Position numbers and translations under genes: made by a program. Below, one piece after another: positions 124 to 36,988 of a stretch of 36,988 nt of DNA; positions within the stretch are counted from its first letter, which is position 1; each line of letters begins with the position of its first letter. The notes beneath the pieces are model-generated. The model was not told the origin of the DNA. It saw only the letters and a list, made by a program, of their open reading frames with translations, and made no database searches. Origin of the DNA: a virus; IMG/VR virus record IMGVR_UViG_3300017950_000002, positions 1 to 36,988 of that record. One strand, written 5' to 3'.

Positions 124-2234
124 ATACGTTCTGCTGAACTTGTCCAAAGCCGCAAAGAGTTATCATTGTTTGAATAACGTATTAAGCCTGCGTATTCACC
201 TACACCTGTACCATCTCCCATATAAATAGAAGCAGTACCAGTGGTGGTTGTTTGCAAAGAAATATCAGCCGTGGCACTGCTTCCGGGCGTTCCGATTTGA
301 AGATCGCGGCTAGGACTATTCGTACCAATACCAACGTTAGTACCACCAGAAGCATTGATAATAAGGTCTTGATTGGCTTGTATTTGTAAGTCTCGACCAC
401 CGTTCTGGGTAAATATCTTTGAAGTCCTTGTCCCATCAATGATGTTTATTTCTGTATTTGAGGAAGAAGAAAGAGTTAAAAGGGCAGTGGGACTCGTAGT
501 GCCAATACCAACTCTGCCGCCAGCTTGTACCGTAAAACGTTCTGATCCATCTCTAAGATCTCTAACAACAAATGAATCTAGGTCGCTGTTCGGGTCTATA
601 TCAATTCTAAGACTTCTGTTGCCCGGCCCTCTTATGGTTGCAAAATCATCACTACCAGCGTGGCGGATTCTCATAGAACCTACAACATCTAACGGGTAAC
701 CGGGACTATCCGTACCAATACCAACGTTGCCGCTGGCGTCGATACGCATACGTTCTGTGCTGTTGGTACTAACCGTTAGCGCATTAGATGCTTCAGACAA
801 AAATGGGCTGAATCCAGAAGATGATTCCAGATAAAACTTTCCTGATGGCTTGATAATGACGTTGCCAACGCCATCAATCCGCATACGCTCTACTAAAGAC
901 GTTGGGCCATAAGTGGTAAATGTTAAGGCGCTATAATTTCCGCTATATCTTACTCCTGTAATTTCACTTGTTCCTGCGGTAGCATAATTAACAGTGCTGT
1001 TTAAAAACTGTAGCTTTGCCCCTGAGCCAGCAGTTGCATCTCCATTTCGAAGTTGAATTACATTTGTAACAGCCCCTGCGTTTGTAGAAACTACTTCAAA
1101 CTTAGCATTGGCATTTGGAGAAGAAGTGCCAATGCCTACGCTACCAGAGCTATCAATACGCATACGTTCTGTGCCGTTGGTGCTAAACAACATGTCAGTG
1201 TTTTGGAAATTCCATAACTCTGCATTTTCTGAGCCATCTATGCCTACAGTGAAACCATTGCTGGCGCCAACACCAGTAGTGCTATTTGTATACTGAGTTT
1301 GAACACCCGTACTGTCGCTTTTACTTAAAACAAGAACACGTTGAGGACTGTCAGTGCCAATACCAACGTTGCCACTAGAGTCGATACGCATACGTTCGGC
1401 AGAGTTTGTTCTGAACCGCATACTATTGCCGCTTGTTGCATACCACAGCCCACCTGCGTCAGTTCCCGCAGAGTTTCTAAATTGTATCCTTGCATCCGCA
1501 GTTGCATTACTAGTACCAATATACAAATATGTGTCGGACGCTGAATTGATGTGGAAATTACCAGCAGGACTCGTAGTGCCAATACCAACATTGCCGCTGG
1601 AATTTACAGTTACCCTTGGATTATCTCCTCCGGTAGCTATAAACATACTGTCATTGCTGTGGTCGTAGTAAAGCTGACCAGCCCTCTGACCAGCGCCTGT
1701 TGTCGTATCTCCGAAATAAATACGCCCTTGGCTTGCAGTGCCTGAGTAAATAGTTACGCCGCTATTAGAAGATCCAGCACCAACAGATAAACTTTGACCT
1801 GTTTGAAACGTTTCCGTATTCCCAATACCAACATTGCCGTTCGGAATACTTACGTTCTGAGCGTTATCAATGGATATTGCAGTTGTACCAGTAGTCTGCA
1901 ACAGCATTGTCTCAGGGTTACTACTATGGTCGTACAGTATCTTGCCACGCGCACTAACATTGTCGCTAAATAATATTTCTGACGTTCCCCCAGCAGAGCC
2001 GTCACCTATTTCAATTTCGTGCGCTAAAGCAGTACCCGTGACATCAATGCCTGTATCGCTAACGGTCAGCTTTGTGCTTGTGGCGTTATCGTCGATGCCT
2101 GTGGAGGTGAACGACCCAAACGTAACGTCATCACCAGACTGATACTTGTCCGTATTCAGATTGGTGAAATTGGCGTCAACCTCATTGTGCGTGAGTGGAG
2201 AACCCTTACCCGATCTAGTAGTAATCGTACTCAT
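1..2234 (-). CDS. Tail fibre, N-terminal 744 codons (C-terminus continues at 36865-36508)
   Basis: The frame is open from the ATG at 2234 down to position 1 and continues across the circle junction to a stop at 36508, giving 863 residues. The protein is a long receptor-binding fibre built of repeated cycles ending in motifs such as ERMRIDSSGNVGIGT. About nine variants are visible (for example VNSSGNVGIGT, IDSSGSVGIGT, IDASGNVGIGT and QAGGRVGIGT), each followed by a TxSP-type turn and a new beta-rich stretch. This repeat type is common in trimeric phage fibres that end in an S74 intramolecular chaperone, which is present here in the distal part. The start overlaps the stop of the upstream fibre gene as TAATG, suggesting translational coupling. 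No full-length frame shows within the window because the contig break splits the gene. The receptor is unknown. Confidence 0.9.
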   Translation of the reverse strand, partial: MSTITTRSGKGSPLTHNEVDANFTNLNTDKYQSGDDVTFGSFTSTGIDDNATSTKLTVSDTGIDVTGTALAHEIEIGDGSAGGTSEILFSDNVSARGKILYDHSSNPETMLLQTTGTTAISIDNAQNVSIPNGNVGIGNTETFQTGQSLSVGAGSSNSGVTIYSGTASQGRIYFGDTTTGAGQRAGQLYYDHSNDSMFIATGGDNPRVTVNSSGNVGIGTTSPAGNFHINSASDTYLYIGTSNATADARIQFRNSAGTDAGGLWYATSGNSMRFRTNSAERMRIDSSGNVGIGTDSPQRVLVLSKSDSTGVQTQYTNSTTGVGASNGFTVGIDGSENAELWNFQNTDMLFSTNGTERMRIDSSGSVGIGTSSPNANAKFEVVSTNAGAVTNVIQLRNGDATAGSGAKLQFLNSTVNYATAGTSEITGVRYSGNYSALTFTTYGPTSLVERMRIDGVGNVIIKPSGKFYLESSSGFSPFLSEASNALTVSTNSTERMRIDASGNVGIGTDSPGYPLDVVGSMRIRHAGSDDFATIRGPGNRSLRIDIDPNSDLDSFVVRDLRDGSERFTVQAGGRVGIGTTSPTALLTLSSSSNTEINIIDGTRTSKIFTQNGGRDLQIQANQDLIINASGGTNVGIGTNSPSRDLQIGTPGSSATADISLQTTTTGTASIYMGDGTGVGEYAGLIRYSNNDNSLRLWTSSAERMRIDSSGNLLVGTTSANALITADNASNTGNTLLSLKDSGGT

Positions 2235-2647
2235 TAGCCTAATGTCACCTTCAGATTGCCAGCAGAAATACGCAATATATCGCCCGTACTGATCGTCTTC
2301 GGCAGCGCCGTCACAAAGTCAGCAGGATCAGTAAGCTCCGCCCATGCCAGCATATTCCCGGCAGAAGAGGCATCAAAAACCCCAGCATAGGTTACTGTAC
2401 CCCAAGAGCCAGTTGCCTCTGGAAACTCCACTGCGGCGCTGCTAGTGGCTGTTGTTGGGGATGTGCCAGACACCGTAAACGCCACAGACTGACGGGCATA
2501 TCCGTTCCCAGAAACCTCAGTACCCGGGCCAGTATCACTGGCTGCGCTGGTGAAAACGCCAACGTACAAGGTAGTCGGCGCAGTATATGAAGTCCCACCA
2601 AATACATGATTGAGAACCTTGTCCTCAAGGTAGTCTGAAAAGCTCAT
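2234..2647 (-). CDS. Small tail-fibre-family structural protein, 137 aa
   Basis: This 137-residue protein begins MSFSDYLEDKVLNHVFGG and continues with a TLYVGVFTSA segment, a YARQSVAF strand, a SWGTVTYAGVFD strand and a GDILRISAGNLKVTLG end. I recognise this as a widespread phage family usually annotated as tail fibre or tail-associated protein. It is Ser/Thr/Ala rich and beta-rich with no signal peptide. It lies between the adaptor array and the long fibre, overlapping both (ATGA upstream, TAATG downstream), so it is probably co-translated with them. A structural role at the tail tip is inferred; no enzymatic motif is visible. Confidence 0.75.
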   Translation of the reverse strand: MSFSDYLEDKVLNHVFGGTSYTAPTTLYVGVFTSAASDTGPGTEVSGNGYARQSVAFTVSGTSPTTATSSAAVEFPEATGSWGTVTYAGVFDASSAGNMLAWAELTDPADFVTALPKTISTGDILRISAGNLKVTLG

Positions 2648-4797
2648 CCTAATCCCCTAACTTTTAGCTGTAAGCCTGTGCCAGACTGCGAGGCGCTGGC
2701 TCCACTTTCATTTACGCGAGCCAACGCTGCGCTGTACAACTGCGCCCATGTTGCCGCTCTCTGGTCATCTTTAATGTACGGCGCTGCATGAAGAAGCGCA
2801 CCATACAAATAAACATCTGGGTGGCTTAGTAGCAACCAGTTGTCTGCATTGCTTCCGCTCAATGCAGGTATCTTCTGGTAATACAAAAGCTCTACCTCGT
2901 ATGTGCCGTCAGCGGTCGGAAAGACCTCAAATCCGCGCTCCGCATGACGGTAATATCTTGGCTCGCCGGTAGCGTTCTCAACACCCTGACGCTTATCTGC
3001 CATTGCCGCAGCAGATAACAGTTGTAAATTTCTGGTTCCGCCAGAAGTAATGTGCAGGCGTATCGTCTCTACCCAATCACTAGGGCGCTGCAGGTACTGC
3101 CCATCAACTTCAGCAGTAGCCCGATTTTCCATTTCAAAATGGCGGATATCACGACTCATTTGAGCCTCAGCCATCTCAATAAACTGAGGTATTATATCAT
3201 CCAAGTCGGGTCTATCTAACCAATCAGAAATTGCAAACTTCAGCCCGGTATAGGTATTAAGAGACGTATCCGTATCTGGTCGCCTAACTTCAAGCAGCGC
3301 AGATTCATATTTGCCCTGCCACACCAGCACCCTTTGGTCATCACCAAGGTATGGCGCGGCCTCAGACAAAGCGCCATGCAAATAAACATCAGGATGGTTA
3401 GTTAGCATCCAGTTCGTTGTGTTGCCAGTGGACAGCGTAGTGACATCTCTAAATCGCCGCTGCAGCCGAGCCTCAGCGAGCCGTATGAACTCTGGCACCG
3501 TCTCATCAAGATCCGGGCGATTTAACCAATCTGACACGGCGAACTTTAAGCCATCATAATTAGATAGATTAGAATCCGCGTCCGGCCTTCGCACCTCAGC
3601 AAATGCGGCCTCATACTTTGTCTGCCACAGTACGCTGCGCTCATCATTCCCAAGATACGGGGATGCTTCTGCGAGCGCCCCGAACAGATACACGTCAGGG
3701 TGATTGGTAAGAACCCAGTTAGTGGTGTTGCTGTCTGATAGTGCGTCAATATCCCGCACACGGCGCTTAATCCTAGCTTCTGCAAGCTGGATAAACTCAG
3801 GGATTATTTCGTCAATATCAGGGCGATTTAGCCAATCTGCAATAGCAGCCTTTAGACCCGCGTAATTATCTAAGCTGGTATCCGCGTCAGGGCGTCTAAC
3901 CTCCAACAAGGCAGCGTCATACTTCGCCTGCCATAACGGAATACGCTCATCATTGCCGATGTACGGAATAGCCTCTACCAATGACCCAAATAGGTATACA
4001 TCCGGGTGGTTGGTAAGCATCCAGTTGGTGGTTTCTACTGCCGTCAGCGGTGTAATGTCGCGTACCCGCCGCTTAATTCTAGCCTCAGCTAACTGAATAA
4101 AGTCAGGAATAGCATCGTCTAGGTCATACCGCTCTAACCAATCCGCTATCGCCGCCTTGAGTCCGTCATAGTCATCCAGATTAACACCAGACTTAGGCTT
4201 GCGAATCTTGCCGATCTCAGCCTCGTATAGCGTCCTCCAGACCTGTAACCGATCATCTTGCCCAAGATACGGCGAAGCCTCAGAGAGAGATGCGTATAGA
4301 TACAGATCAGGGTGATTCGTCAGAATCCAGTTCGTGGTGTTGCTTGCCGAGAGCGCCGTCATGCCATCAAACTTGCGGAATAGCTTGGCCTCACCCAGCT
4401 TAATCAACTGCGGCACAACGCCATCAAGGTCTGCCCGAGCAAGCCAATCTCCGACAGCCAGCTTCAAGCCGTCATAATCATCAAAATCCGCGTTCCCTAC
4501 CGTACCCCGCAACGTACCTACAGCGGCTGCATATAGCTGCGCCCATACGTTTACACGCTCGTCTTCTACAAGGTACGGAGACGCCTCCAATAGCGCGCCA
4601 TAGAGATAAACGTCAGGATAGCTGGTAAGTATCCAGTTGTTGGCATTTGACGCTGAGAGTGGGCTGAAGTCCTTGTAGCGCCGCTTTAGCTTCGCCTCAG
4701 TCAGAGAGATGAAGTCTGGTATGGCAGCGGTTAGGTCGCTACGGTTTAGATAGTCAGCGACCGACGCCTTTAACTCAGTATAGTTGGACAGTGCCAT
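2644..4797 (-). CDS. Head-tail adaptor homologue made of six tandem units, 717 aa
   Basis: The protein is almost entirely repeat. Units start near residues 5, 107, 209, 311, 413 and 515, with a period of exactly 102 residues (306 bp) for the first five. Each short unit has an N-terminal helical half (YxGLKxAIADWLxRxDLD, then IPxFIxLAEAxxxRRxRD) and a C-terminal half (NTTNWxLTNHPDVYLxGAL, EASPYLxxDxR, VWQxKYxAAL). The sixth unit, about 200 residues, carries an extra central beta-rich stretch (about 555-645) between the same halves. That layout matches single-copy adaptor/connector proteins of podoviruses (about 200 aa), which dock under the portal. The five upstream units look like copies lacking the core domain. 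They have diverged from one another, so they are not an assembly error. The ATG directly abuts the stop of the preceding gene. Confidence 0.75.
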   Translation of the reverse strand: MALSNYTELKASVADYLNRSDLTAAIPDFISLTEAKLKRRYKDFSPLSASNANNWILTSYPDVYLYGALLEASPYLVEDERVNVWAQLYAAAVGTLRGTVGNADFDDYDGLKLAVGDWLARADLDGVVPQLIKLGEAKLFRKFDGMTALSASNTTNWILTNHPDLYLYASLSEASPYLGQDDRLQVWRTLYEAEIGKIRKPKSGVNLDDYDGLKAAIADWLERYDLDDAIPDFIQLAEARIKRRVRDITPLTAVETTNWMLTNHPDVYLFGSLVEAIPYIGNDERIPLWQAKYDAALLEVRRPDADTSLDNYAGLKAAIADWLNRPDIDEIIPEFIQLAEARIKRRVRDIDALSDSNTTNWVLTNHPDVYLFGALAEASPYLGNDERSVLWQTKYEAAFAEVRRPDADSNLSNYDGLKFAVSDWLNRPDLDETVPEFIRLAEARLQRRFRDVTTLSTGNTTNWMLTNHPDVYLHGALSEAAPYLGDDQRVLVWQGKYESALLEVRRPDTDTSLNTYTGLKFAISDWLDRPDLDDIIPQFIEMAEAQMSRDIRHFEMENRATAEVDGQYLQRPSDWVETIRLHITSGGTRNLQLLSAAAMADKRQGVENATGEPRYYRHAERGFEVFPTADGTYEVELLYYQKIPALSGSNADNWLLLSHPDVYLYGALLHAAPYIKDDQRAATWAQLYSAALARVNESGASASQSGTGLQLKVRGLG
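3256..4785 (-). repeat. Five tandem 306-bp in-frame repeats in the adaptor gene
   Basis: Five consecutive 102-codon repeats encode residues 5-514 of the adaptor-like protein. The most conserved nucleotide stretch is the one coding for the NHPDVYL region, visible on the plus strand as variants of tanacatcngggtggttngt near 2810, 3390, 3695, 4000, 4310 and 4610. Units 2-5 are closer to one another than to unit 1 or to the final full-length unit, consistent with serial duplication of an already core-deleted unit. Confidence 0.9.
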
Positions 4798-5314: not shown

Positions 5315-5491
5315 ATGAATGAATCAACACTCTCACAGAATGCACGAGATTGGATAGAGGCCATCTCTGTCAGCCCGCGCGATTGGGATAACGGCGTACT
5401 TGAAGCCATGCTGAACCACGACTGCGTAGCTGATGAAGAGAAGGCGTACATATTACGGCGTTATCGCTCCCTTCTTGATCAGTGCATCTAG
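5315..5491 (+). CDS. Lone plus-strand small acidic protein, 58 aa
   Basis: This is the only plausible plus-strand gene. From ATG 5315 it encodes 58 residues beginning MNESTLSQNARDWIEAI and ending RRYRSLLDQCI. It is acidic and probably helical, with a composition like a real soluble protein. It occupies a 166-bp stretch otherwise free of minus-strand coding and overlaps the 3' end of the 5453-7351 gene by 39 bp, tail to tail. AAGGG lies directly against the ATG, too close for normal initiation, and a TATACT box at 5303-5308 would place transcription start at or next to the ATG, so a leaderless message is possible. No family is recognised. Confidence 0.5.
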   Translation: MNESTLSQNARDWIEAISVSPRDWDNGVLEAMLNHDCVADEEKAYILRRYRSLLDQCI

Positions 5492-7351
5492 CGTAGCTTG
5501 GTCAAACTGACCAATCAGACCAGCCTGCATAGCCTTACCTACTGGCGATGGCCTTGTGAACGCACCGAGGTCATGACCCCTTCGCAGCATCTCTTCAACA
5601 AACGGCTGCTTAGATGCCCTGAAAAGCGGGTTTAAATCTTCCAGTAAGTTGATATCCCCGCCAAATTGACCAAGATACTGGCCCATGATGTCGGTGTTAT
5701 ATGACGGGTGGCGGCCTGCTTGCGGGGCGATGGTCAGATCCATAACGCCCGCCTGCCTTAGATTACCAACTCGCGGGTTCATTTGTTCGGCATCGACAAT
5801 CGCAGCCCTAGCTTGTGACAAGCTGATACCTGCCTCATCTCGGAACTCATCAATAGCCTTAGTGACAGCCTTGCGATCTCCGCCAGCGTTTGCCAGCCAC
5901 TCAGCGGCCTTGGGACTATCTAGACCGGGCCAATCCGGTTGCGGCTTCTTCTCGTTTTGCTTATTGCCTGCGCCTTCCCTTATTCTCTTGTCGAGGGACT
6001 TCTTCTGCGCCTTTGTCATGTTCTGGCGAGCCACCGGAACCATTATGTCCGCAGTCATTGTGGCAAAATCTGTGCTTGCCCCCGCCATCCCGTATGGAAT
6101 GTATATTGGCGACCTAGAGACACCGGGCAGCTCCATAGTGGACTTTCCTCCGCTTACCAGACCAGACACCACGTCTTTGTCAGATGCCCACAAGATGCCC
6201 CTCTCGGCATTATACGGCTGCCTCATGTAGTCCTGACCGCCAAACCGGACAACATCTACCGGCTGCCCGTTTATCATAACAATGCGCGACAGATCGCCTC
6301 GGCTGGTGTCTGACATACCAGAGACAAAACCTCGACCCTCAAGGTCAGCTGCGCTAATCCTTTGTGATGGGAGCAGCGTTACTCCGGGTTCTACATCTAG
6401 CGTCATGGCGTTGACCTCATCAACGTCACCAACACGCTGCAACAGCCCAGTATCCCTTGTTACGGGTGGCGCTTTCTCGGTTATGCCCATTGCGCTGTTA
6501 AATAACCCACGCCCAGCAGGGAACAGCCCCGCAGCAGCACCTAGCAGCCCCAACCCTACGCCTAGTGCGTCATCATTACGGTATGCGTCATAAGTCTCTG
6601 ATATGCCCTTAGCGGCACCCACAAAGGGCAAGAAGTCCATTCCCATTGAAATGTACTCTGCTACATCTCGGGCATCTTCTGTGCCACCCATAGCGTCTGT
6701 GAGGGCGTCAACCATCTTGTCGGTGAGTCCCTCATATCCGCCTTCTTGCTTGTCTGCCGTCGCGTTAGCAGCGCCGACCGCAGTATTAGCAACAGCACCC
6801 AGAAGGGATGGCCCGCCGCTAGAGCCTTCCGACAGCCCAAGAATGTTTGGGCCAGTGTAGTCAGGATCAAATGCAGCGGAGAAATAGGATCGGATGTCGC
6901 GGGGGTCAAATGTCACCCTGTCAGTGCCTGACTCAAGCCCTGTGATACCCTCTTCCCGTAAAGCCGGATAGATTGAAGGCAGATCACTTATTCTTGTTGA
7001 TGGATACCTATCAGCAACGTCACTGAGGTGGTCAACACCGCCTCGCAGCATAATCGGTATGACATTCTCACCGCCTCGCAAAGTGCCTTGCCCGCCCTGC
7101 GGATAACCTGACGCAACGGATGGGTTTGATGAGCTATAGATGCCCGGGCCTTGCACACCTTCAGTGCTAGGCTGGAACTCTAGTATATCCGCCCGGGTGC
7201 CGTGATAGTGCTTGGCATTGAACCCCTGATCGGCAGCGCGAGACATACGGCTGGCAGTGTCCATCGGCAGCTCACCAGAAGCTATCTTCCGCGCCGTCTC
7301 TTCTGGATAGCCAGCCCTAACGAGGGTGGCAAAAGCGTCTAGTAATCCCAT
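5453..7351 (-). CDS. Large virion-type protein with N-terminal ADP-ribosyltransferase-like domain, 632 aa
   Basis: Residues about 47-163 carry an ART-fold pattern: YHGT at 49-52 (motif I His), GPGIYSSSNP at 68-77 with Tyr72 (motif II), a VIPIMLRGG strand, and FDPRDIRSYFSAAFDP at 148-163. The last motif is typical of ARTs in phage polyvalent proteins. A clear catalytic Glu of motif III is not obvious. Residues about 230-290 include a hydrophobic, Gly/Ala-rich stretch (FLPFVGAAKG, GVGLGLLGAAAGLFPAG). The C-terminal half is mixed alpha/beta with a Lys-rich linker near 450-470. It lies directly after terL and before the basic micro-proteins. Injection with the DNA to modify a host target is inference; a purely structural role is also possible. 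Confidence 0.6.
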   Translation of the reverse strand: MGLLDAFATLVRAGYPEETARKIASGELPMDTASRMSRAADQGFNAKHYHGTRADILEFQPSTEGVQGPGIYSSSNPSVASGYPQGGQGTLRGGENVIPIMLRGGVDHLSDVADRYPSTRISDLPSIYPALREEGITGLESGTDRVTFDPRDIRSYFSAAFDPDYTGPNILGLSEGSSGGPSLLGAVANTAVGAANATADKQEGGYEGLTDKMVDALTDAMGGTEDARDVAEYISMGMDFLPFVGAAKGISETYDAYRNDDALGVGLGLLGAAAGLFPAGRGLFNSAMGITEKAPPVTRDTGLLQRVGDVDEVNAMTLDVEPGVTLLPSQRISAADLEGRGFVSGMSDTSRGDLSRIVMINGQPVDVVRFGGQDYMRQPYNAERGILWASDKDVVSGLVSGGKSTMELPGVSRSPIYIPYGMAGASTDFATMTADIMVPVARQNMTKAQKKSLDKRIREGAGNKQNEKKPQPDWPGLDSPKAAEWLANAGGDRKAVTKAIDEFRDEAGISLSQARAAIVDAEQMNPRVGNLRQAGVMDLTIAPQAGRHPSYNTDIMGQYLGQFGGDINLLEDLNPLFRASKQPFVEEMLRRGHDLGAFTRPSPVGKAMQAGLIGQFDQATLDALIKKGAITP

Positions 7352-11921: not shown

Positions 11922-12175
11922 CAGTGAAGCTCCGTACTGTGGTCAACTATGTACTCTAGCTCGCCCTCTAGCTCCTCTAGCTCGCAGCACAAACAGGTCA
12001 GCCAGACCTTAATGAAGTCGCTCAATGGCACATCAACCGTTATGCCTTCCGTAAAGGTGTCGGTGTAAACATCTGTCAGCGATGAGTCGGATCGGTTTGG
12101 CATGGCTGCACTGATAGTGGAGGTCAGTATCGCAATGTCTCCATTACCCATTGGCATCTTAATCACCGGGATCAT
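11921..12175 (-). CDS. Hypothetical early protein, 84 aa
   Basis: It begins MIPVIKMPMGNGDIAILTST, followed by a TEGITVDVPLSDFIKVWL segment and an acidic C-terminus (CELEELEGELEYIVD). The strand-then-helix pattern resembles small phage proteins with a GITVDVP-type motif, but I cannot name a family. It overlaps both neighbours by 1-4 bases, which supports its being a gene. Confidence 0.6.
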   Translation of the reverse strand: MIPVIKMPMGNGDIAILTSTISAAMPNRSDSSLTDVYTDTFTEGITVDVPLSDFIKVWLTCLCCELEELEGELEYIVDHSTELH

Positions 12176-13332
12176 ATGCGCGGCCTCACCGTTATTCTGG
12201 CGATCTCCCCGCCAGTCTTATGGTATGTAATAACCTTCGCTCCTCTCTGAGAAACCCAGCCGCCTCTCGCTGCGTATGCGTCCCGACCCGCAAGTGTGGG
12301 ATGCTGCTCTGCGATTGCGCCACCATCCTCAACAACCCTTTCATGGTGATAGTGTCCAGAGTGTATGTAGCAATGTGTGCTGGCTCCCCACATCTCGCGG
12401 AATCGTGGCTCACTGGCAAATAGCTTGTGCAACAGGGCCAGCTTCACCTTATGACCATGATGAAATCCCAGCATCGTTTTTCCATGAAGATAAGCGTAGT
12501 AGGGGAAGTCATTATCAATCACCTGCAACCTGTCTTCATCCGCAAACAGGTGCTTTATGTGCTTCCGTAGCCAGATGCTTCCAGAAATATCATGATTGCC
12601 TTCCGCTGAAACGACGATGACTTTATCGAATCGCCGCAACATCATCATCACCGCCTCAGCCATGACCGACATCGCAAGCTCAACCAGTTTGCCGTAACGA
12701 GTGTCGGCATCTAGGATATGACCGGATTGAGGCGTCACATTCAAGATGCCATCCCAGTGCAGGAAATCACCTAGCTGGCACAAAATCCCTGTCCCTGATT
12801 TGGGCGCTGCCTTAATCATGTCGTTTATTGAGTTGAGGAAAACATCCCGGGCAATGTGGACATCCCAATCGTCGCCCGTTTCCGCTTCATAGGCATACAT
12901 GCCTAAATGGAAATCAGTGATCGTTAAAAGCGTGAGCAGGTCTTCATCCGCACTCTTCGGTGCTGCTACTGGCTTGAACCTAGCCAGCCCCTCCTGTGCA
13001 GACTCAATACGCTCAACCAATATCTCAAATTGTCTTTTCTCATCGGTCTGAGATTTGACCCACTGGCGGACAGGGTTGCCTTGTTCATCATAGAACGTGG
13101 ATACACCTTTGATCTTATGCCCATCAGGAACCGGATGATTCCATCCATGATCCGGGCTGTATCCCCTGCGCGCAGCCTTATCCCTGACCAGCCTCAAGTG
13201 GTCACCGACAGTCCCCCGGCTAACCTTGAGTAAATTGGCGACCTCTCTATAAGAAAGACCCTGCACCTCGATGAGATCAATTATCTGTTTTTGTTTTTCT
13301 GTTGTACAAAATTCCAGCAGCGGATGATCCAC
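12172..13332 (-). CDS. HTH-metallophosphoesterase fusion, 386 aa
   Basis: Residues about 8-52 form a helix-turn-helix (TEKQKQIIDLIEVQGLSYRE, then VANLLKVSRGTVGDHLRLV) like sigma region 4/LuxR domains. Residues about 135-330 are a calcineurin-like phosphoesterase with its full metal-binding set: ITDFH (D140, H142), GDF (D189), GNHD (245-248), HHGH (291-294) and GHYH (326-329). This places it among two-metal nucleases/phosphatases. Such fusions occur in many marine phages; the substrate is not established, with DNA ends or a nucleotide as candidates. It sits among recombination genes, supporting a DNA-processing role. The catalytic residues look intact. Confidence 0.85.
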   Translation of the reverse strand: MDHPLLEFCTTEKQKQIIDLIEVQGLSYREVANLLKVSRGTVGDHLRLVRDKAARRGYSPDHGWNHPVPDGHKIKGVSTFYDEQGNPVRQWVKSQTDEKRQFEILVERIESAQEGLARFKPVAAPKSADEDLLTLLTITDFHLGMYAYEAETGDDWDVHIARDVFLNSINDMIKAAPKSGTGILCQLGDFLHWDGILNVTPQSGHILDADTRYGKLVELAMSVMAEAVMMMLRRFDKVIVVSAEGNHDISGSIWLRKHIKHLFADEDRLQVIDNDFPYYAYLHGKTMLGFHHGHKVKLALLHKLFASEPRFREMWGASTHCYIHSGHYHHERVVEDGGAIAEQHPTLAGRDAYAARGGWVSQRGAKVITYHKTGGEIARITVRPRI

Positions 13333-19682: not shown

Positions 19683-20591
19683 TTATGGAGTGCAGTTTAC
19701 TGATGAAGTGCCGTCAGCATTATTGACAACCGTACACTTCAACTGTGGGACATTTTTCATGATCTCAGCGATCGCCGTGGTGTAGTCTGACCAAACGCCA
19801 TCCATCAGCGCGTTATTGCCAGCATCAAGCGAAAGCAAAGTGCCGAATGCCGTTGTGCTTACATTGGTTATCCCAGTAATACCCGCGTTGCCCAGATTTA
19901 CAGCGCCATCAATTCCGGCATTTCCTAGATTTACAGCGCCATCAATTCCGGCATTTCCTAGATTTACAGCGCCATCAATTCCAGCCGTGCCGAGGGCTAC
20001 ATTAGAGTCAAACCCAGCAGTACCCAAGGTGACAGCCCCGTTAATCCCAGCCGTGCCGAGGGCCACGTTGGAATCAAAACCAGCAGTGCCTAGATTTACC
20101 GCGCCATTAATGCCAGCAGTTCCAAGATCAACCATGCCATTAACGAATGGCGTATAGTCAATGTTGCCTGCGACCTCACCCATGCTAACGAACGACCCAT
20201 ATAGCGACTGCTGGGTGGTGGCATCCGCAGAAATGCGGGCCAGATCAACGTCTGCGCTGTACTTAGCCATCGTCTTTGCTGAGTCTGCCTGCATCCACAT
20301 CATTCCCAAGCTAGTAACCGGGGTCGCCAAAATAGATGCCCACTGTAACGCCTGAGACTGTTGTGGAACCGGAGTGATAGTTGGCGTCTGAGTTAGCGCA
20401 AGAGCCATCACAGCGGCGCTGGCAGCTTGTCCGTCACCAGAGGATGCAATGGCAGCAAGTGCGTCATATTTTGCCTGAGATGCGGCTGCATTAGCCTGCG
20501 CTGCGGCCTGTACCGCTTCGTAATATTGGCTGGTGCTTGAGGCGCAACCGCTTAGAACCGCAACCAACGCCAAAGAAAATCCCACTTTCAT
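19683..20591 (-). CDS. Repeat-bearing lipoprotein, 302 aa
   Basis: A lipoprotein signal (MKVGFSLALVAVLSGC, Cys16) predicts acylation and probable outer-membrane placement. Residues 17-70 are Ala/Gln-rich and helical. Residues 83-100 are hydrophobic (WASILATPVTSLGMMWM). Residues 157-244 hold eight tandem 11-residue repeats of the type GTAGINGAVNL. The first four alternate two versions (INGAV and FDSNVA), while later copies are GNAGIDGAVNL. The C-terminus has two Cys (LKCTVV and VNCTP). It lies between capsid and lysis genes. Surface or periplasmic action such as superinfection exclusion, or a lysis role, is inference; I know no characterised homologue. Confidence 0.7.
   Translation of the reverse strand: MKVGFSLALVAVLSGCASSTSQYYEAVQAAAQANAAASQAKYDALAAIASSGDGQAASAAVMALALTQTPTITPVPQQSQALQWASILATPVTSLGMMWMQADSAKTMAKYSADVDLARISADATTQQSLYGSFVSMGEVAGNIDYTPFVNGMVDLGTAGINGAVNLGTAGFDSNVALGTAGINGAVTLGTAGFDSNVALGTAGIDGAVNLGNAGIDGAVNLGNAGIDGAVNLGNAGITGITNVSTTAFGTLLSLDAGNNALMDGVWSDYTTAIAEIMKNVPQLKCTVVNNADGTSSVNCTP
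19860..20123 (-). repeat. Eight tandem 33-bp in-frame repeats in the lipoprotein gene
   Basis: The 33-bp unit encodes an 11-residue repeat. On the plus strand about 19897-19980 repeats the phrase tagatttacagcgccatcaa nearly without change, indicating recent expansion. The copies to its right (about 19990-20123) alternate two diverged versions, indicating an older 66-bp unit. Copy number is likely to vary between relatives. Confidence 0.9.
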
Positions 20592-22833: not shown

Positions 22834-23064
22834 TCATTTGCGTTTTTTATCGTAGATCGCCTCATCCTGTAGGATTTGGGCCATACGATCTTCGATCTTC
22901 ATAAGCGCCCTAATAATCTGGTGCGCGTCTTCCCGGTCTTCAAATGAAGAGTGCGGGTTAAAAAAGATATCGCCCTGATCTTTTTTAATGTCTGCGATTA
23001 GGCCATTAAACCCGTCATCGCGCTGCAACCGCCTAACAGCAGTCGCACGATCCTTTATGCTCAT
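22834..23064 (-). CDS. Small protein between portal and scaffold, 76 aa
   Basis: It begins MSIKDRATAVRRLQRDDGFN and is helical with basic ends (IEDRMAQILQDEAIYDKKRK). Genes of this size between portal and scaffold are common in podoviruses, but the role is unknown. The ATG overlaps the portal stop by four bases. A head-assembly helper is the likeliest guess. Confidence 0.65.
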   Translation of the reverse strand: MSIKDRATAVRRLQRDDGFNGLIADIKKDQGDIFFNPHSSFEDREDAHQIIRALMKIEDRMAQILQDEAIYDKKRK

Positions 23065-25148
23065 CTAGGCACAGCCTGCATCTGCTTAATACGCTCAACA
23101 TCTACGGCAGTGCCGTACTTGCCCAAAATCTCTGCAGCACTAATCAGCAAATCCTGATCCATTTTATCACGCGCGCGGTCATCATCTGCAGCAGCCTTCT
23201 GTGCATCAAGCTGCAGCTTAAACTGATCCTTCTGCATCTGCGCCTGCATCTTAGCCATGTCTGTCTGAGCCTTGGCCTGCGCCTTCACCTGCTCCGCCTG
23301 CAAGTACGCCTGCGCTTGTGGGTCAGCCTGCTGGCCTTGTTGTTGAGCGGCCTGCTGTTGCTGCATCATCATCTGCTGCTCAATCTGCGGATTCATCGGG
23401 TTGAAGTAGCGCGTACTGTTTCTGATGCCATTCAACGCAAGAATATCTGCAAGGGTATTGCGGATCTGAGTCAGAGAGACAATGCCGTTACCCGGCCCGT
23501 ATGCCTGCATGATCTGTGATTGCACTTGGAATGCCTGCATCAGCGCCGCCAGCTTTTGTTCTTCTCTACCAGTTCCCAAGCCAACATTAACCGTGACATC
23601 CATCGTGACATTCCACGATCTGGGATCTACCGGAACGTACTCAGCGCCAGCGACACGCATCATCTGCTGTTCGTCTACATTTTCGTGCATGACCTTCAGC
23701 ATTAGGGTGAACATCTTACGCATACCGCCTTCAGCAAGATTGCGCGCCATAACCTCAATCTGTCCGGCCTGCGCTTGAACGGTGGCATTAACTGCGGCTG
23801 CGGTTGCGTTTTGTAGTGCGTCAGGTGATAGCCCGGTAGACGCCTTGGTAACACCCGTCTTGTTCTCAATCTCCATGTCGAGATACTGAAGGGCGGTAAG
23901 TGTCTGGCCCGCAACAAAAGGAACCGCTTGAGGCTGTATCGCCCCGGGCTGTTTAACCCGAATGATCCCGCCAATTTCATTGTTTAGTAGGTCATCTATG
24001 TTGACAGCGCCATCAAGGATCTCAATGCGAGGGCTATTCGTCAGCGCAACATTGTCCAAGACGCCACGCAGCATTGCAGTAGATGCGTCTTGATCGTTGA
24101 TAATCAGATCAGCAACAGAGCGCCCGTAAAACGTATGAGGCTCTGGATCCACTTCAAATACAGCGAACGGGATGTGCGAGCAAGCCATGTAATCCAGCAG
24201 CTTGTAAGCAGCCCCGCCAAGGGTCACCTTCTGAAGCGTGGGTATGCCGCTTCCGGTAACGTCTATCTTCATGTAGACCTCAGTGACGGCTACAAGACGC
24301 ATTGATGGGTCTTGAATGTCCTCGTCAGAGTAGTCCTCTTCGTAGCCCCTACGCTCAAACTCCTCAACCTCTGAGAATGTGTCTGAGTGCTGAAGCCCGG
24401 TCAGATCCTTAACGTCCTCATAGTCATACCCCATAGAGATTAAGTCGCCAATACGCATCTCTGTGCGGTGGCTGACGGCATACGCCTCATCTATGCTTCT
24501 GGCGTTACGATCAACAAAGAACTCTTCTGGGGGAACCGACTCAATGCAAATCTTGCCAACATCTTTATAACGCGCAATCTTGAGGTCGTAGTACGGTGAC
24601 TCTATCTCCATGCCCATCTCATCAATGGTCATCTCTACGCGCTTTGTGGACTCAATTACCTCAACGTCATCATCCATCGTGATGACTCGGTACTCCATCT
24701 CGTTAAGGTTTTCAAAGTCGTATGTCTCTTGCTCTTGGTAGTTGTCCCAATAGACCTTAACTATCCCTGACTTTTTAACCAGCGCATCGTGGAATGCGTC
24801 ATTCAGAACGCGGTAGCCATTATGCTCATTGAAGACGTAGTGCATATATTCGGTGGCTTGCTCTGCAGCCTGTACGTCTTCTGGCCCCCTTGGCACATAC
24901 TCCACGGGCTTGTCCGTAGACAGAAACACGCGCATAAGAGACGGCTTTATAGCCCGGATAGTGTCACGCACTTTAGTGGCGACCACCTTAGACCGGCCCT
25001 CTTCCTCGCCGATATCTACCTCGCCGTCAAAGTATCGCTGCGCCTTTATTCGATCTTCAGCAATCTCAGATTCCACAAAGTCAACCGAATCCATAACCGC
25101 CTCTCTGGCGATTGATTCGATTTCTTGATCTGTCATCGGCTTGAGCAT
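23061..25148 (-). CDS. Portal protein, P22-type, 695 aa
   Basis: The dodecameric DNA gate at one capsid vertex. The start (VDFVESEIAEDRIKAQRYFD), the RAIKPSLMRVFLSTDKPVEY segment, the long wing/stem middle and RGVLDNVALTNSPRIEILDG are typical of P22-type portals. The C-terminal 90 residues form a Gln/Ala-rich helix (QQQQAAQQQGQQADPQAQAY), as expected for a portal barrel. The length is within the usual 650-730 range. It overlaps the upstream gene as TAATG. Confidence 0.92.
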   Translation of the reverse strand: MLKPMTDQEIESIAREAVMDSVDFVESEIAEDRIKAQRYFDGEVDIGEEEGRSKVVATKVRDTIRAIKPSLMRVFLSTDKPVEYVPRGPEDVQAAEQATEYMHYVFNEHNGYRVLNDAFHDALVKKSGIVKVYWDNYQEQETYDFENLNEMEYRVITMDDDVEVIESTKRVEMTIDEMGMEIESPYYDLKIARYKDVGKICIESVPPEEFFVDRNARSIDEAYAVSHRTEMRIGDLISMGYDYEDVKDLTGLQHSDTFSEVEEFERRGYEEDYSDEDIQDPSMRLVAVTEVYMKIDVTGSGIPTLQKVTLGGAAYKLLDYMACSHIPFAVFEVDPEPHTFYGRSVADLIINDQDASTAMLRGVLDNVALTNSPRIEILDGAVNIDDLLNNEIGGIIRVKQPGAIQPQAVPFVAGQTLTALQYLDMEIENKTGVTKASTGLSPDALQNATAAAVNATVQAQAGQIEVMARNLAEGGMRKMFTLMLKVMHENVDEQQMMRVAGAEYVPVDPRSWNVTMDVTVNVGLGTGREEQKLAALMQAFQVQSQIMQAYGPGNGIVSLTQIRNTLADILALNGIRNSTRYFNPMNPQIEQQMMMQQQQAAQQQGQQADPQAQAYLQAEQVKAQAKAQTDMAKMQAQMQKDQFKLQLDAQKAAADDDRARDKMDQDLLISAAEILGKYGTAVDVERIKQMQAVPR

Positions 25149-31044: not shown

Positions 31045-31695
31045 CTATTGGCTAATTCTTACGATACTCAGCGTTGAAGAAGGCGCTGCTGGCTCGCTCG
31101 CTATTGAACTAGCAATTGCCTCTAGCTTGCCGCTGGCATCATCTACAGCCGCCATAACCTTCAGCGTGTCCTCGGCATTTACAGTAAATAATGCAGTCCT
31201 AGACACCACCAGCGCAGCGTTGTTTTGATGTAGAGCATTCTTCATCGTGCTGTTTGACACGTTTGATCCATTGATCTGGGGCCAAAACGCGAAATTAACC
31301 GTACTAGATGATGATGAGGAGATTTGTGCCGAAAAAGACACCATGTATTTTCCAGCCTCCTCAAAGGTAATCTCACTCCCCGATACACTCAGCCCAGTGT
31401 TATTGCTGTCTGCCGTGTAACTTAATGCTGTTGCCGTATTCGCTGTAAACGTCACGTTTGAGCTAATGTAAAAAAATCCATATCCGTCAGCTAGGACAAT
31501 CTGGCGAAACTCACTGCCTTTAGATACAACCGGGTAGCCGTCAGTGTCCCATAAGATGATACCGTCATTTGTTGCCTTATCATCTGCATCTTTGAAAGCA
31601 ACAGTTGACCTGACTCTTGACAAGTAGTCAGATAAATCTTCTGCCCACTGATCCGGGTTGTCCGGTGCGTAGGGTGGCGGTCGCTCTCTACTCAA
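31045..31695 (-). CDS. Tail protein with C1q-like beta domain, 216 aa
   Basis: The N-terminus PPPYAPDNPDQWAEDLSDYL is an attachment-like helix seen in other phage tail proteins. Residues about 85-210 form a jelly-roll of C1q/TNF type: TALSYTADSNNTGLSVSGSE, ITFEEAGKYMVSFSAQISSS and VNFAFWPQINGSNVSNSTM. Such domains trimerise and bind surface ligands. The start is an uncommon TTG at 31695, overlapping the hub stop as TTGA with a G-rich ribosome-binding site. A receptor-contact role is inferred. Confidence 0.7.
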   Translation of the reverse strand: MSRERPPPYAPDNPDQWAEDLSDYLSRVRSTVAFKDADDKATNDGIILWDTDGYPVVSKGSEFRQIVLADGYGFFYISSNVTFTANTATALSYTADSNNTGLSVSGSEITFEEAGKYMVSFSAQISSSSSSTVNFAFWPQINGSNVSNSTMKNALHQNNAALVVSRTALFTVNAEDTLKVMAAVDDASGKLEAIASSIASEPAAPSSTLSIVRISQ

Positions 31696-33626
31696 CGCCT
31701 ACCGCCCCCAGAAGCCCGCATCCGTAAATCACCAAACCGCCAGTTATTGCCTTCGCCGCCATCAATCCGCAGCTTCACTTGCCGCCCGGTAAACCTAACG
31801 CTCATTGGATTGGCGGGGTTATATGGCCCGTGAGTGGTTTCTGTATCATTTGGATAGAACTTGGTCTTAAACTTCAAGGACACTTCGCCCTGAGTATCTT
31901 CCTCTGGGATCACCTCTGTAACGCGAGCAACAGTGTCTCCATCTGCAAAATCAATTGGCCCTGACTCCAAAAATACTGACGCGCTTTCATGACCAAAGCC
32001 GGTTTCATGGCGATAAGCCGCGCTGTTTGCCACCCACCAAGGCTCTTGGAATGGCCCGCTGTCAACGCCAGTTGACCTCGTTAAATCACCTATCAGCCAA
32101 TGATTCTCCCTGTAATCATAGGCGACATACTTATTGCACTCATCCGCACCATTTGCCGGATAAAACCACCAGACCTCATTAAACTTTTGGTTTGCAACGC
32201 ACCAGCCGTGGCTAACCTTAGACCTGTTTATCTCGGTGAAAACCTTATCATGCACCTCACAGGGAAGCACTCTGGCCTGCGTTCCGTCATAAAAAAAGAA
32301 GTTATTTTTGCCCATCCAAAACGCGCTCGGGCCAACAGATGCCAGCATATTCTTGCCAACAAGACCGCATGAGTCACCAATCTTTTGGAAGCCAAATACT
32401 GTGGGCGGCCCCTGATATGTCGCCGTCCAACAGTCCGTGGTTGTGAGCAGCAGCGTTCTGCCCCTAACAGATACGCCAGCCACCAATGATCCAGATGTTT
32501 GAAGCTCGATATCGCCAGCCTCATTAATCACGCTGGGCTGCCATTCATACAGATTTTCTCTGTCGCACCACTGAACCTTTCGGGGATTGCCTCCAGCCCT
32601 CAAGGCAAAAACAAAACGCTCTGCCGTTACAACAAGCCCATAATTGCTAGTCGGAACTTCTGTCGGGTTTGCCGTTGTGCCGTCAGCGATGTCAACGACA
32701 AGTGCGTTGGCAGAAACCTTTGTCATCGGAGTTGTTGTTGGAGCCAAAGCCCATGCAGACATATCTAGCTCATAAATCTGACCGTCAGAGTTAGATACCG
32801 CTAGTAAGTCCTCACCCCAGTTTGCCAGCGTCCACACCGTTGCCTCCGCAATGGTAAAGTCTTCCTCTCGCTCTACACCGTAGTTTCCACTTCCATAGGT
32901 GCTGCCGCCATAACCAGTGTTCTGTGACGCCTCCGCAGTCCCTGACGGAACAGGGCTTGGGGTTATGTCATAAGAGGATCCATTGCCGTCAATGATCGCA
33001 ATCCGGTTGTATGACGCGGATGCAAAATATGGATTATTGGAGTTGTTTACCCATGTATGGCTGGCCCGATACTTTCTATCCTTTTTGTAAACCCGAAACT
33101 TTGATATGACACCCTCAGCATCCGTGTAAACAGAAAACCCACTATTTGATGCGCTAGTCAAGGGATTGCCGGTCGTGATTTCCTGCGTAATCTTGGTTAT
33201 ACCGTCTACATCCGCTGTTGTAATCGCGGTTCCAGAAACACCGTCCAGCTTTGGCAGAATGGTTCCAGAAACCAATGACTCAATAGTAATCTCAACAAAA
33301 TATGTTGTACCGGCTTCTAAGGATGCAGAGGCATCTCGAAACACCTCGCCAGTACCATTGATATCAAAGGTTATCTCTCCATCAGTGGTATTTTGGCTGA
33401 TCGTCCCCGTTCCGCTGGCAAGCGTTACAGACCATCCGGTTGCATCGGTAAAGTCGCCATTGGTGATTAGTTGCTCAACGTCAGCAAAATACACCCAGCC
33501 GCCAACAGGCTGTGCGGAGTTATTAGTCCAGCGTACAAGGCTAGAGTCTAGCCACCTTCCCTTGGAGTCTAGCTCGTTGCCGTGATTATAGATCCCGGCT
33601 GGTATGTCAACCTTGACAAGCGGCAT
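31692..33626 (-). CDS. Tail hub, P22 gp10-like, with inserted jelly-roll module, 644 aa
   Basis: The start is ATG 33626 in a TAATG overlap (MPLVKVDIPAGIYNHGNELD). The stabilisation-protein body includes RWLDSSLVRWTNNSAQPVGG, then after an insertion ASHTWVNNSNNPYFASASYN and NRIAIIDGNGSSYDITPSPV, and beta-propeller strands such as KVQWCDRENLYEWQP, DCWTATYQGPPTVFGFQKIG and MGKNNFFFYDG. This matches P22 gp10-type hubs that close the portal channel and carry the needle. Residues about 51-182 interrupt the fold with ITNGDFTDATGWSVTLASG and further beta strands, the signature of a carbohydrate-binding-module-like domain. Confidence 0.8.
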   Translation of the reverse strand: MPLVKVDIPAGIYNHGNELDSKGRWLDSSLVRWTNNSAQPVGGWVYFADVEQLITNGDFTDATGWSVTLASGTGTISQNTTDGEITFDINGTGEVFRDASASLEAGTTYFVEITIESLVSGTILPKLDGVSGTAITTADVDGITKITQEITTGNPLTSASNSGFSVYTDAEGVISKFRVYKKDRKYRASHTWVNNSNNPYFASASYNRIAIIDGNGSSYDITPSPVPSGTAEASQNTGYGGSTYGSGNYGVEREEDFTIAEATVWTLANWGEDLLAVSNSDGQIYELDMSAWALAPTTTPMTKVSANALVVDIADGTTANPTEVPTSNYGLVVTAERFVFALRAGGNPRKVQWCDRENLYEWQPSVINEAGDIELQTSGSLVAGVSVRGRTLLLTTTDCWTATYQGPPTVFGFQKIGDSCGLVGKNMLASVGPSAFWMGKNNFFFYDGTQARVLPCEVHDKVFTEINRSKVSHGWCVANQKFNEVWWFYPANGADECNKYVAYDYRENHWLIGDLTRSTGVDSGPFQEPWWVANSAAYRHETGFGHESASVFLESGPIDFADGDTVARVTEVIPEEDTQGEVSLKFKTKFYPNDTETTHGPYNPANPMSVRFTGRQVKLRIDGGEGNNWRFGDLRMRASGGGRR

Positions 33627-34117
33627 TAGGCGGTGAATCCAACAAATGACCCGTAAAGCTGAGAACCAACTTTCCACAACTGCACCCAGTTGTCATTCGT
33701 TGCGTGAAGAGTTGGCGCGCTGCCATAAACCCACTTCATGGTAGGCCACGTTACCGTGTCAGATCCTACGGATGATATCTGCAAGGTAACAAACTGCCCC
33801 GCAGATAAGCTGTCGGTAATCGTCACGTTGCCGGTCATGGCAATTGTTTGGATAGTGCCATTTGATGCAGACACATCAACCGTGCCTGATGCGCCAGCAC
33901 TATAAACCTCTTCCGTAATTGAGCCGCTAATATCAAGAGAAACAACAGCAGTTAGCGTCAATGCGTCAGCCGTAATGCCGTCGATATTGATATCCGCGCC
34001 GCCACCATTAAGGATGGTATCTAGCGATGTCCAGTTGCTGTTTAGCTTCGTACCCCATGCGTTTGCATCGCCACCAATAGATGGTAGGTCAAAGCTAAAA
34101 TTTGTTGTCGTAGCCAT
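33626..34117 (-). CDS. Short tail-fibre protein, 163 aa
   Basis: The start MATTTNFSFDLPSIGGDANA followed by WGTKLNSNWTSLDTILNG is a standard N-terminal module of phage tail fibres that attaches to the tail. The rest is beta-rich (TVDVSASNGTIQTIAMTGNV, then FVTLQISSVGSDTVTWP) and ends WKVGSQLYGSFVGFTA. The length is short for a fibre, so it may be an attachment adaptor for other fibres. It lies directly upstream of the hub gene. Confidence 0.75.
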   Translation of the reverse strand: MATTTNFSFDLPSIGGDANAWGTKLNSNWTSLDTILNGGGADINIDGITADALTLTAVVSLDISGSITEEVYSAGASGTVDVSASNGTIQTIAMTGNVTITDSLSAGQFVTLQISSVGSDTVTWPTMKWVYGSAPTLHATNDNWVQLWKVGSQLYGSFVGFTA

Positions 34118-36507: not shown

Positions 36508-36988
36508 TTATGCTCCTTTTAGTGCCGCTACTTCGGCTTTTAAGTCTTGAATTTCTTTAATCATCATTGGGACTAGCTTGCTGTAATCCACCTGCCACAT
36601 ATCGTCTTCAGTCGCGCCTTGTGTTACTGCTTCAGGTGCAACGTCAACAAGCTCTTGTGCGACCATGCCGTAGGTCTGGCGTGATCCGTCAGCCTTCCAG
36701 TCAAAAGAACGTACACGGATATCGTCGATGTTACCTGCTGGTGCGTCTACGATGTTTTCTTTGAGGCGTTCGTCTGAGGATGTGTTGTAGGATGTTGCGG
36801 TTCCGCCTGTATTAATAGTGCCGACTTGCCCATTTGTGTTATTAAACGAAATTTGCGTATGCGTTCCCGTTCCACCTGAATCCTTTAAGCTGAGAAGAGT
36901 ATTGCCTGTATTTGAGGCATTGTCTGCCGTAATCAGTGCGTTCGCAGAAGTAGTCCCAACCAGCAAGTTGCCGCTGGAGTCGATACGC
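36508..36988 (-). CDS. Tail fibre, C-terminal part with S74 chaperone (N-terminus at 2234-1)
   Basis: This is the distal end of the fibre whose start is at 2234. The frame is open to the right edge, and the last 123 bases duplicate the left end. After the final cycle (AERMRIDSSGNLLVGTTSAN) comes the S74 intramolecular chaperone: TSSDERLKENIVDAPAGNID, RVRSFDWKADGSRQTYGMVA, QELVDVAPEAV, WQVDYSKLVPMMIKEIQDLK and a terminal helix. The Ser-Asp cleavage dyad is S775-D776 in the 863-residue protein. By family, the chaperone assembles the trimer and then cuts itself off. Confidence 0.9.
   Translation of the reverse strand, partial: RIDSSGNLLVGTTSANALITADNASNTGNTLLSLKDSGGTGTHTQISFNNTNGQVGTINTGGTATSYNTSSDERLKENIVDAPAGNIDDIRVRSFDWKADGSRQTYGMVAQELVDVAPEAVTQGATEDDMWQVDYSKLVPMMIKEIQDLKAEVAALKGA
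36866..36988. repeat. Direct terminal repeat, right copy
   Basis: These 123 bases are identical to positions 1-123. The reading frame of the tail fibre passes through both copies in register, so removing one copy gives a continuous 863-codon gene. Confidence 0.95.

Follow-up and report, generated by a model that had tools for sequence, protein, structure and literature searches.

One adaptor unit per chain is usual, if not strictly defining, for the head-tail adaptors of family PF24175, and the question raised by the present locus is what a virus makes of a single chain that carries six. The window analyzed here, 36,988 bases long, is an entire virus record whose two ends share a 123-base direct repeat. 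In it, five tandem short units of exactly 102 residues each stand ahead of one complete unit (Table 1), an arrangement that the original prediction had proposed and that the reading frame, the alignment and a unit profile all bear out.

Table 1 Features of the adaptor array and of its expected partners in the window.
Feature	Position	Strand	Basis and remarks
Fused adaptor-array protein, whole gene	2644..4797	minus	717 aa + stop; PF24175 SU10_adaptor E 1.1e-100; phrog_2941 E 2.8e-173
Short unit 1, aa 6-107	4477..4782	minus	Helix bundle only; orthologues at the same position in relatives; u1 clade support 0.991
Short unit 2, aa 108-209	4171..4476	minus	Alignment and unit profile; u2 clade support 0.997
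Short unit 3, aa 210-311	3865..4170	minus	Alignment and unit profile; unit tree
Short unit 4, aa 312-413	3559..3864	minus	Alignment and unit profile; AlphaFold of this unit alone, pLDDT 88.6
Short unit 5, aa 414-515	3253..3558	minus	Alignment and unit profile; unit tree
Complete SU10-type adaptor unit, aa 516-717 (202 aa)	2647..3252	minus	phmmer to 9nwi and 7z47; Foldseek; stop codon 2644-2646
Beta core, aa 553-641, complete unit only; taken as fibre-dock domain	2875..3141	minus	Alignment; strands 557-641 in model; SU10 domain description
Next gene, GP4 fibre-I gp80-like protein	2234..2647	minus	PF23140 E 2.4e-42
SU10-type portal protein, expected adaptor-ring partner	23061..25148	minus	PF23899 E 6.8e-193
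Probable nozzle protein, expected partner on the distal side of the adaptor ring	31692..33677	minus	phmmer: 9nwi chain Y E 7.8e-12; VP1 nozzle E 2.6e-6

Adaptor identity and authenticity of the array

The array protein scored 336 bits against the PF24175 profile (cut-off 27), its best stretch pairing residues 515-700 with profile positions 2-184 of 194. With phmmer, the complete unit matched two adaptors of solved structure, 9nwi (E 5e-12) and SU10 7z47 (E 5e-10). Foldseek again returned 9nwi (E 5e-10, TMt 0.79) as well as 7z47, and together with the helices and strands of the AlphaFold model this describes a helix bundle with an inserted beta domain. The earlier assignment of residues 515-717 to an adaptor family is upheld by each of these searches, and judging from its sequence we conclude that the 717-residue protein is a head-tail adaptor.

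One short unit taken alone reached 53.5 bits in two stretches with the Pfam SU10_adaptor profile (cut-off 27). Scores with the unit profile were about 161-173 bits for all five, but as this profile had been made from the same and related units, the independent support is the Pfam score. An AlphaFold model of short unit 4, based on 28 aligned units, was all-helical and without a beta domain (pLDDT 88.6), and its alignments with the 9nwi, SU10 and GP4 adaptors span 101-102 residues. The VIA Z scores were 13.9 to 9nwi, 12.8 to SU10, 10.1 to GP4, 7.5 to Sf6 gp7 and 5.5 to HK97 gp6, the last of these (3jvo, 80 residues, rmsd 3.3) being under the safe level for helical bundles. The prediction that the short units keep the helical halves and lack the beta core holds, with the refinement that they also have a linker at their end in place of the C-terminal tail seen in the complete unit.

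In the SU10 adaptor a helix bundle is combined with a fibre-dock domain, the portal is bound by a C-terminal embracing loop, and the nozzle platform touches the helix bundles (PMC9509320). By elimination, the 89-residue beta region missing from the alignment of the short units is taken to be the fibre-dock domain. The portal-binding loop is absent from them as well, and the part that they retain is the one met by the nozzle platform in SU10. Collectively, these comparisons support the view that the short units are core-deleted adaptors.

At the DNA level the copies are seen directly to follow each other at 306 nt from start to start, the copies in the window sharing 54-66% of their bases, and Tandem Repeats Finder did not report the array of 2644-4797. 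The 90 bases ahead of the complete unit contain GTG codons and no in-frame Met codon, Met being the only start considered. As the contigs are metagenomic, an assembly artefact of repeated DNA had to be considered. Exact repeats between units reach 12 nt in the window and no more than 27 nt in the other arrays for which they were measured, and the array gene recurs base for base, together with its 2-kb flanks on both sides, in two other contigs. Because the exact repeats between the window's units do not exceed 12 bases and the identical gene is present in those two contigs, we regard the array as real, as originally assumed, and the chance of an artefact as practically negligible. A stand-alone gene for a short unit, which the original prediction had named as a sign of false assembly, was not found. 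Small upstream genes in phiM5 and MJing1 are of short-unit size, but do not match the unit profile.

Unit number, recombination and selection among relatives

Writing n for the number of short units preceding one complete unit, we identified another 25 complete arrays, which come from IMG/VR and a single genome bin. Including the window, n was 1 in five arrays (L085, L086, L089-L091), 2 in three (L012, L084, L151), 3 in seven (L006-L010, L082, L088), 4 in three (L005, L011, L174), 5 in four (the window, L001-L003), 6 in one (L171), 7 in two (L004, L028) and 10 in one (L173), counts that are not frequencies since the searches were biased by their queries. Well over a hundred other loci from the same searches had n = 0. 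The unit length was 102 residues throughout, except for one unit of 100 residues in L082 and a length of about 111 in L151. In L011 (1380-3218) the four short units are window-like and the complete C-terminal unit differs markedly, which looks as though one adaptor end had been swapped for another under the array.

Among cultured phages 290 records were matched by tblastn, the tables of which give joined places and coverage without unit counts and were not used for counting arrays. The array was absent from all nine adaptor loci that were read among these records, and searches of the open-licence literature turned up no adaptor of this design, in agreement with the earlier statement that none was known. 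The single-piece matches in a Thiohalocapsa phage and in BroderSalsa turned out to be ORFs of ordinary adaptor length, with 204 and 230 codons.

Comparison of individual arrays revealed how their length changes. L006 corresponds to units 1-3 of the window up to about nt 912 and from there to the window shifted by two units, with 97-98% identity on both sides, and L005 corresponds to L004 minus three units, the join lying at nt 1170-1175. Within the L028 group the first and the complete units are 98-99.7% identical, yet n is 4, 6, 7 or 10, and the four units of L174 best match units 1, 2, 5 and 10 of L173. The recombinant junctions in these sequences show that the array expands and contracts by in-register recombination between units, and it offers a clear example of how a component of the virion has evolved by this route. 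The 1.5 kb upstream of the array gene is 94.7% identical between L028 and L173 and 99.9% between L171 and L174; between the two pairs the ungapped identity is about 28%, which is chance level, though the end units of their arrays are near-identical.

In a unit tree built with FastTree, first units and likewise second units from the window's relatives cluster according to their position, and units 2-7 of L028 fall into a clade of their own (support 0.984), suggesting that the arrays expanded more than once. We do not claim a single origin of the core deletion, because the deep branches of this tree are weak. The dN/dS ratio per unit was 0.01-0.2 where it could be computed, several comparisons being saturated at synonymous sites, and on these estimates the short units are under strong purifying selection. 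The conservation pattern of their helix bundle follows that of single adaptors (rho 0.72), and an Arg-x-Pro (R-x-P) linker and one Glu are conserved in the short units only.

Possible arrangement of the units in the neck

The full chain was modelled by AlphaFold as folding unit by unit (pLDDT 80) with low confidence in the linkers, and at a pTM of 0.38 the arrangement of the units in the chain is left undefined, so that a loose string is possible. As neighbouring units are joined by a fixed and conserved linker, we think that the short modules most likely stack as coaxial rings. The complete C-terminal units of twelve chains would assemble into the usual adaptor ring, gripping the portal and bearing the fibre dock, and each chain would add n helix bundles devoid of dock and portal-binding tail. 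The twelve copies of each short module would then make up one further coaxial helix-bundle ring, n would set the length or thickness of the neck, and in-register recombination between units would lengthen or shorten the array. We put this reading, a normal ring of complete units with stacked helix-bundle layers and a neck size set by n, at a little short of an even chance; the twelve chains, the stacking of rings and neck length as a phenotype are the parts that we infer. We know of no imaged virion with such an array. A precedent for stacked rings of adaptor fold exists in phiCrAss001, but the ring proteins of that phage retain their beta domain, which weighs against the comparison. More tentatively, the neck may be modular in a strict sense, the number of modules equalling the number of stacked rings and thereby the neck length, and being retuned by recombination among close relatives (4 to 10 modules where the end units are 98-99.7% identical). 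In either form, the variable array suggests that the neck has a component which changes in size over evolution as modules are gained and lost, and the natural series from n = 0 to 10 makes neck architecture, stoichiometry and infection reach comparable across it.

A serious rival, which we consider possible, is that the chains form one ordinary 12-chain ring from which the N-terminal short modules extend as flexible arms or a collar binding fibres, the capsid vertex or the host surface. The low pTM, the weaker linker confidence in the full-chain model and the wide range of n that is tolerated would all be expected of such arms. The 102-residue period, with its two exceptions in L082 and L151, and the conserved linker motif instead argue for an ordered joint, and the part absent from the short units is the very one taken to dock fibres. 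The linker motif, conserved as it is in short units alone, would also be compatible with a precursor that is cut at the R-x-P sites into free helix-bundle proteins and one adaptor, but a structural joint accounts for the motif equally well and we find such processing improbable. It is only slightly less doubtful that the short units arose as an internal duplication, tolerated or selfish, without a role in the virion: close relatives do differ in copy number, but the low dN/dS values and the retention of helix-bundle residues in units of the window that share barely more than half to two thirds of their bases speak against this.

The original prediction had further suggested that consecutive units of a chain are neighbours in the ring, two six-unit chains closing a ring of 12 units. 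The arithmetic works for n = 1, 2, 3 or 5. Among the relatives, however, n+1 takes the values 2, 3, 4, 5, 6, 7, 8 and 11, and close relatives differ by whole units; the values 5, 7, 8 and 11 all occur in one closely related group. Because n+1 is so often no divisor of 12 (5, 7, 8, 11), the two-chain ring is unsupported as a general design and we consider it very unlikely. The same prediction also allowed for short units that decorate the portal stem; they may do so, but they lack the C-terminal loop with which the SU10 adaptor binds its portal. Stacked coaxial rings remain our preferred arrangement.

Known systems and neighbouring genes

The C-terminal 202 residues match the family of SU10-type or T7 gp11-type adaptors (PF24175; SU10 gp11, Pa223 9nwi) over its whole length, with helix bundle and beta domain, and an SU10-type portal is encoded in the window. 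The solved members that were matched are single units, unlike the window's chain with core-deleted units fused in front. Several paralogous adaptor-fold modules are also found in the tail-barrel ring proteins R1-R4 of phiCrAss001, where they have been shown to stack as dodecameric rings that lengthen the tail. That phage stacks five 12-mer rings made from four paralogous ring proteins, and according to the same paper only one such ring, of one protein, had been seen in podoviruses other than crassviruses (PMC10172136). The crassvirus modules are, however, separate proteins with beta domains from a few separate genes, whereas those of the window are fused in one gene, core-deleted and variable in number. 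The bare helix bundle resembles the P22 gp4/Sf6 gp7 connectors (Z 7.5 for Sf6 gp7) and may resemble HK97 gp6 (Z 5.5), but these are single-module proteins, and by sequence the window's protein is related to PF24175 and not to them. Judged by its portal (47.5%), Octadecabacter Antarctic DB virus 2 is the closest relative in culture; its adaptor gp7 lies between the terminase and a gp80-like frame as in the window, but is a single adaptor (n = 0). What sets the present family apart is that adaptor modules are fused, stripped of their fibre-dock and portal-binding parts, and vary in number even between close relatives.

A second adaptor was not found in the window, and in nine related records, which may be fragments, all adaptor matches of a record lie within one gene. 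In L020 a similar gp80-like reading frame follows the adaptor. The record begins within a long minus-strand frame (1-2234), apparently for a tail fibre, which stays open up to the edge for 772 codons, while the opposite end (36508-36966, minus) encodes a Peptidase_S74 chaperone domain; with the 123-base terminal repeat this suggests a single fibre gene that spans the join of a circular map. Upstream of the adaptor lies a gene for a 632-residue protein with a sub-threshold ART-PolyVal match (5453-7351, minus), and L028 has a frame of 1028 codons at the equivalent position. Another protein, of 302 residues (19683-20591, minus), has a lipobox-like start (LSGCASS) and 11-residue repeats of the type NLGTAGINGAV, which derive from 33-bp tandem repeats. 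A 386-residue protein (12172-13332, minus) has an N-terminus resembling sigma-70 region 4.
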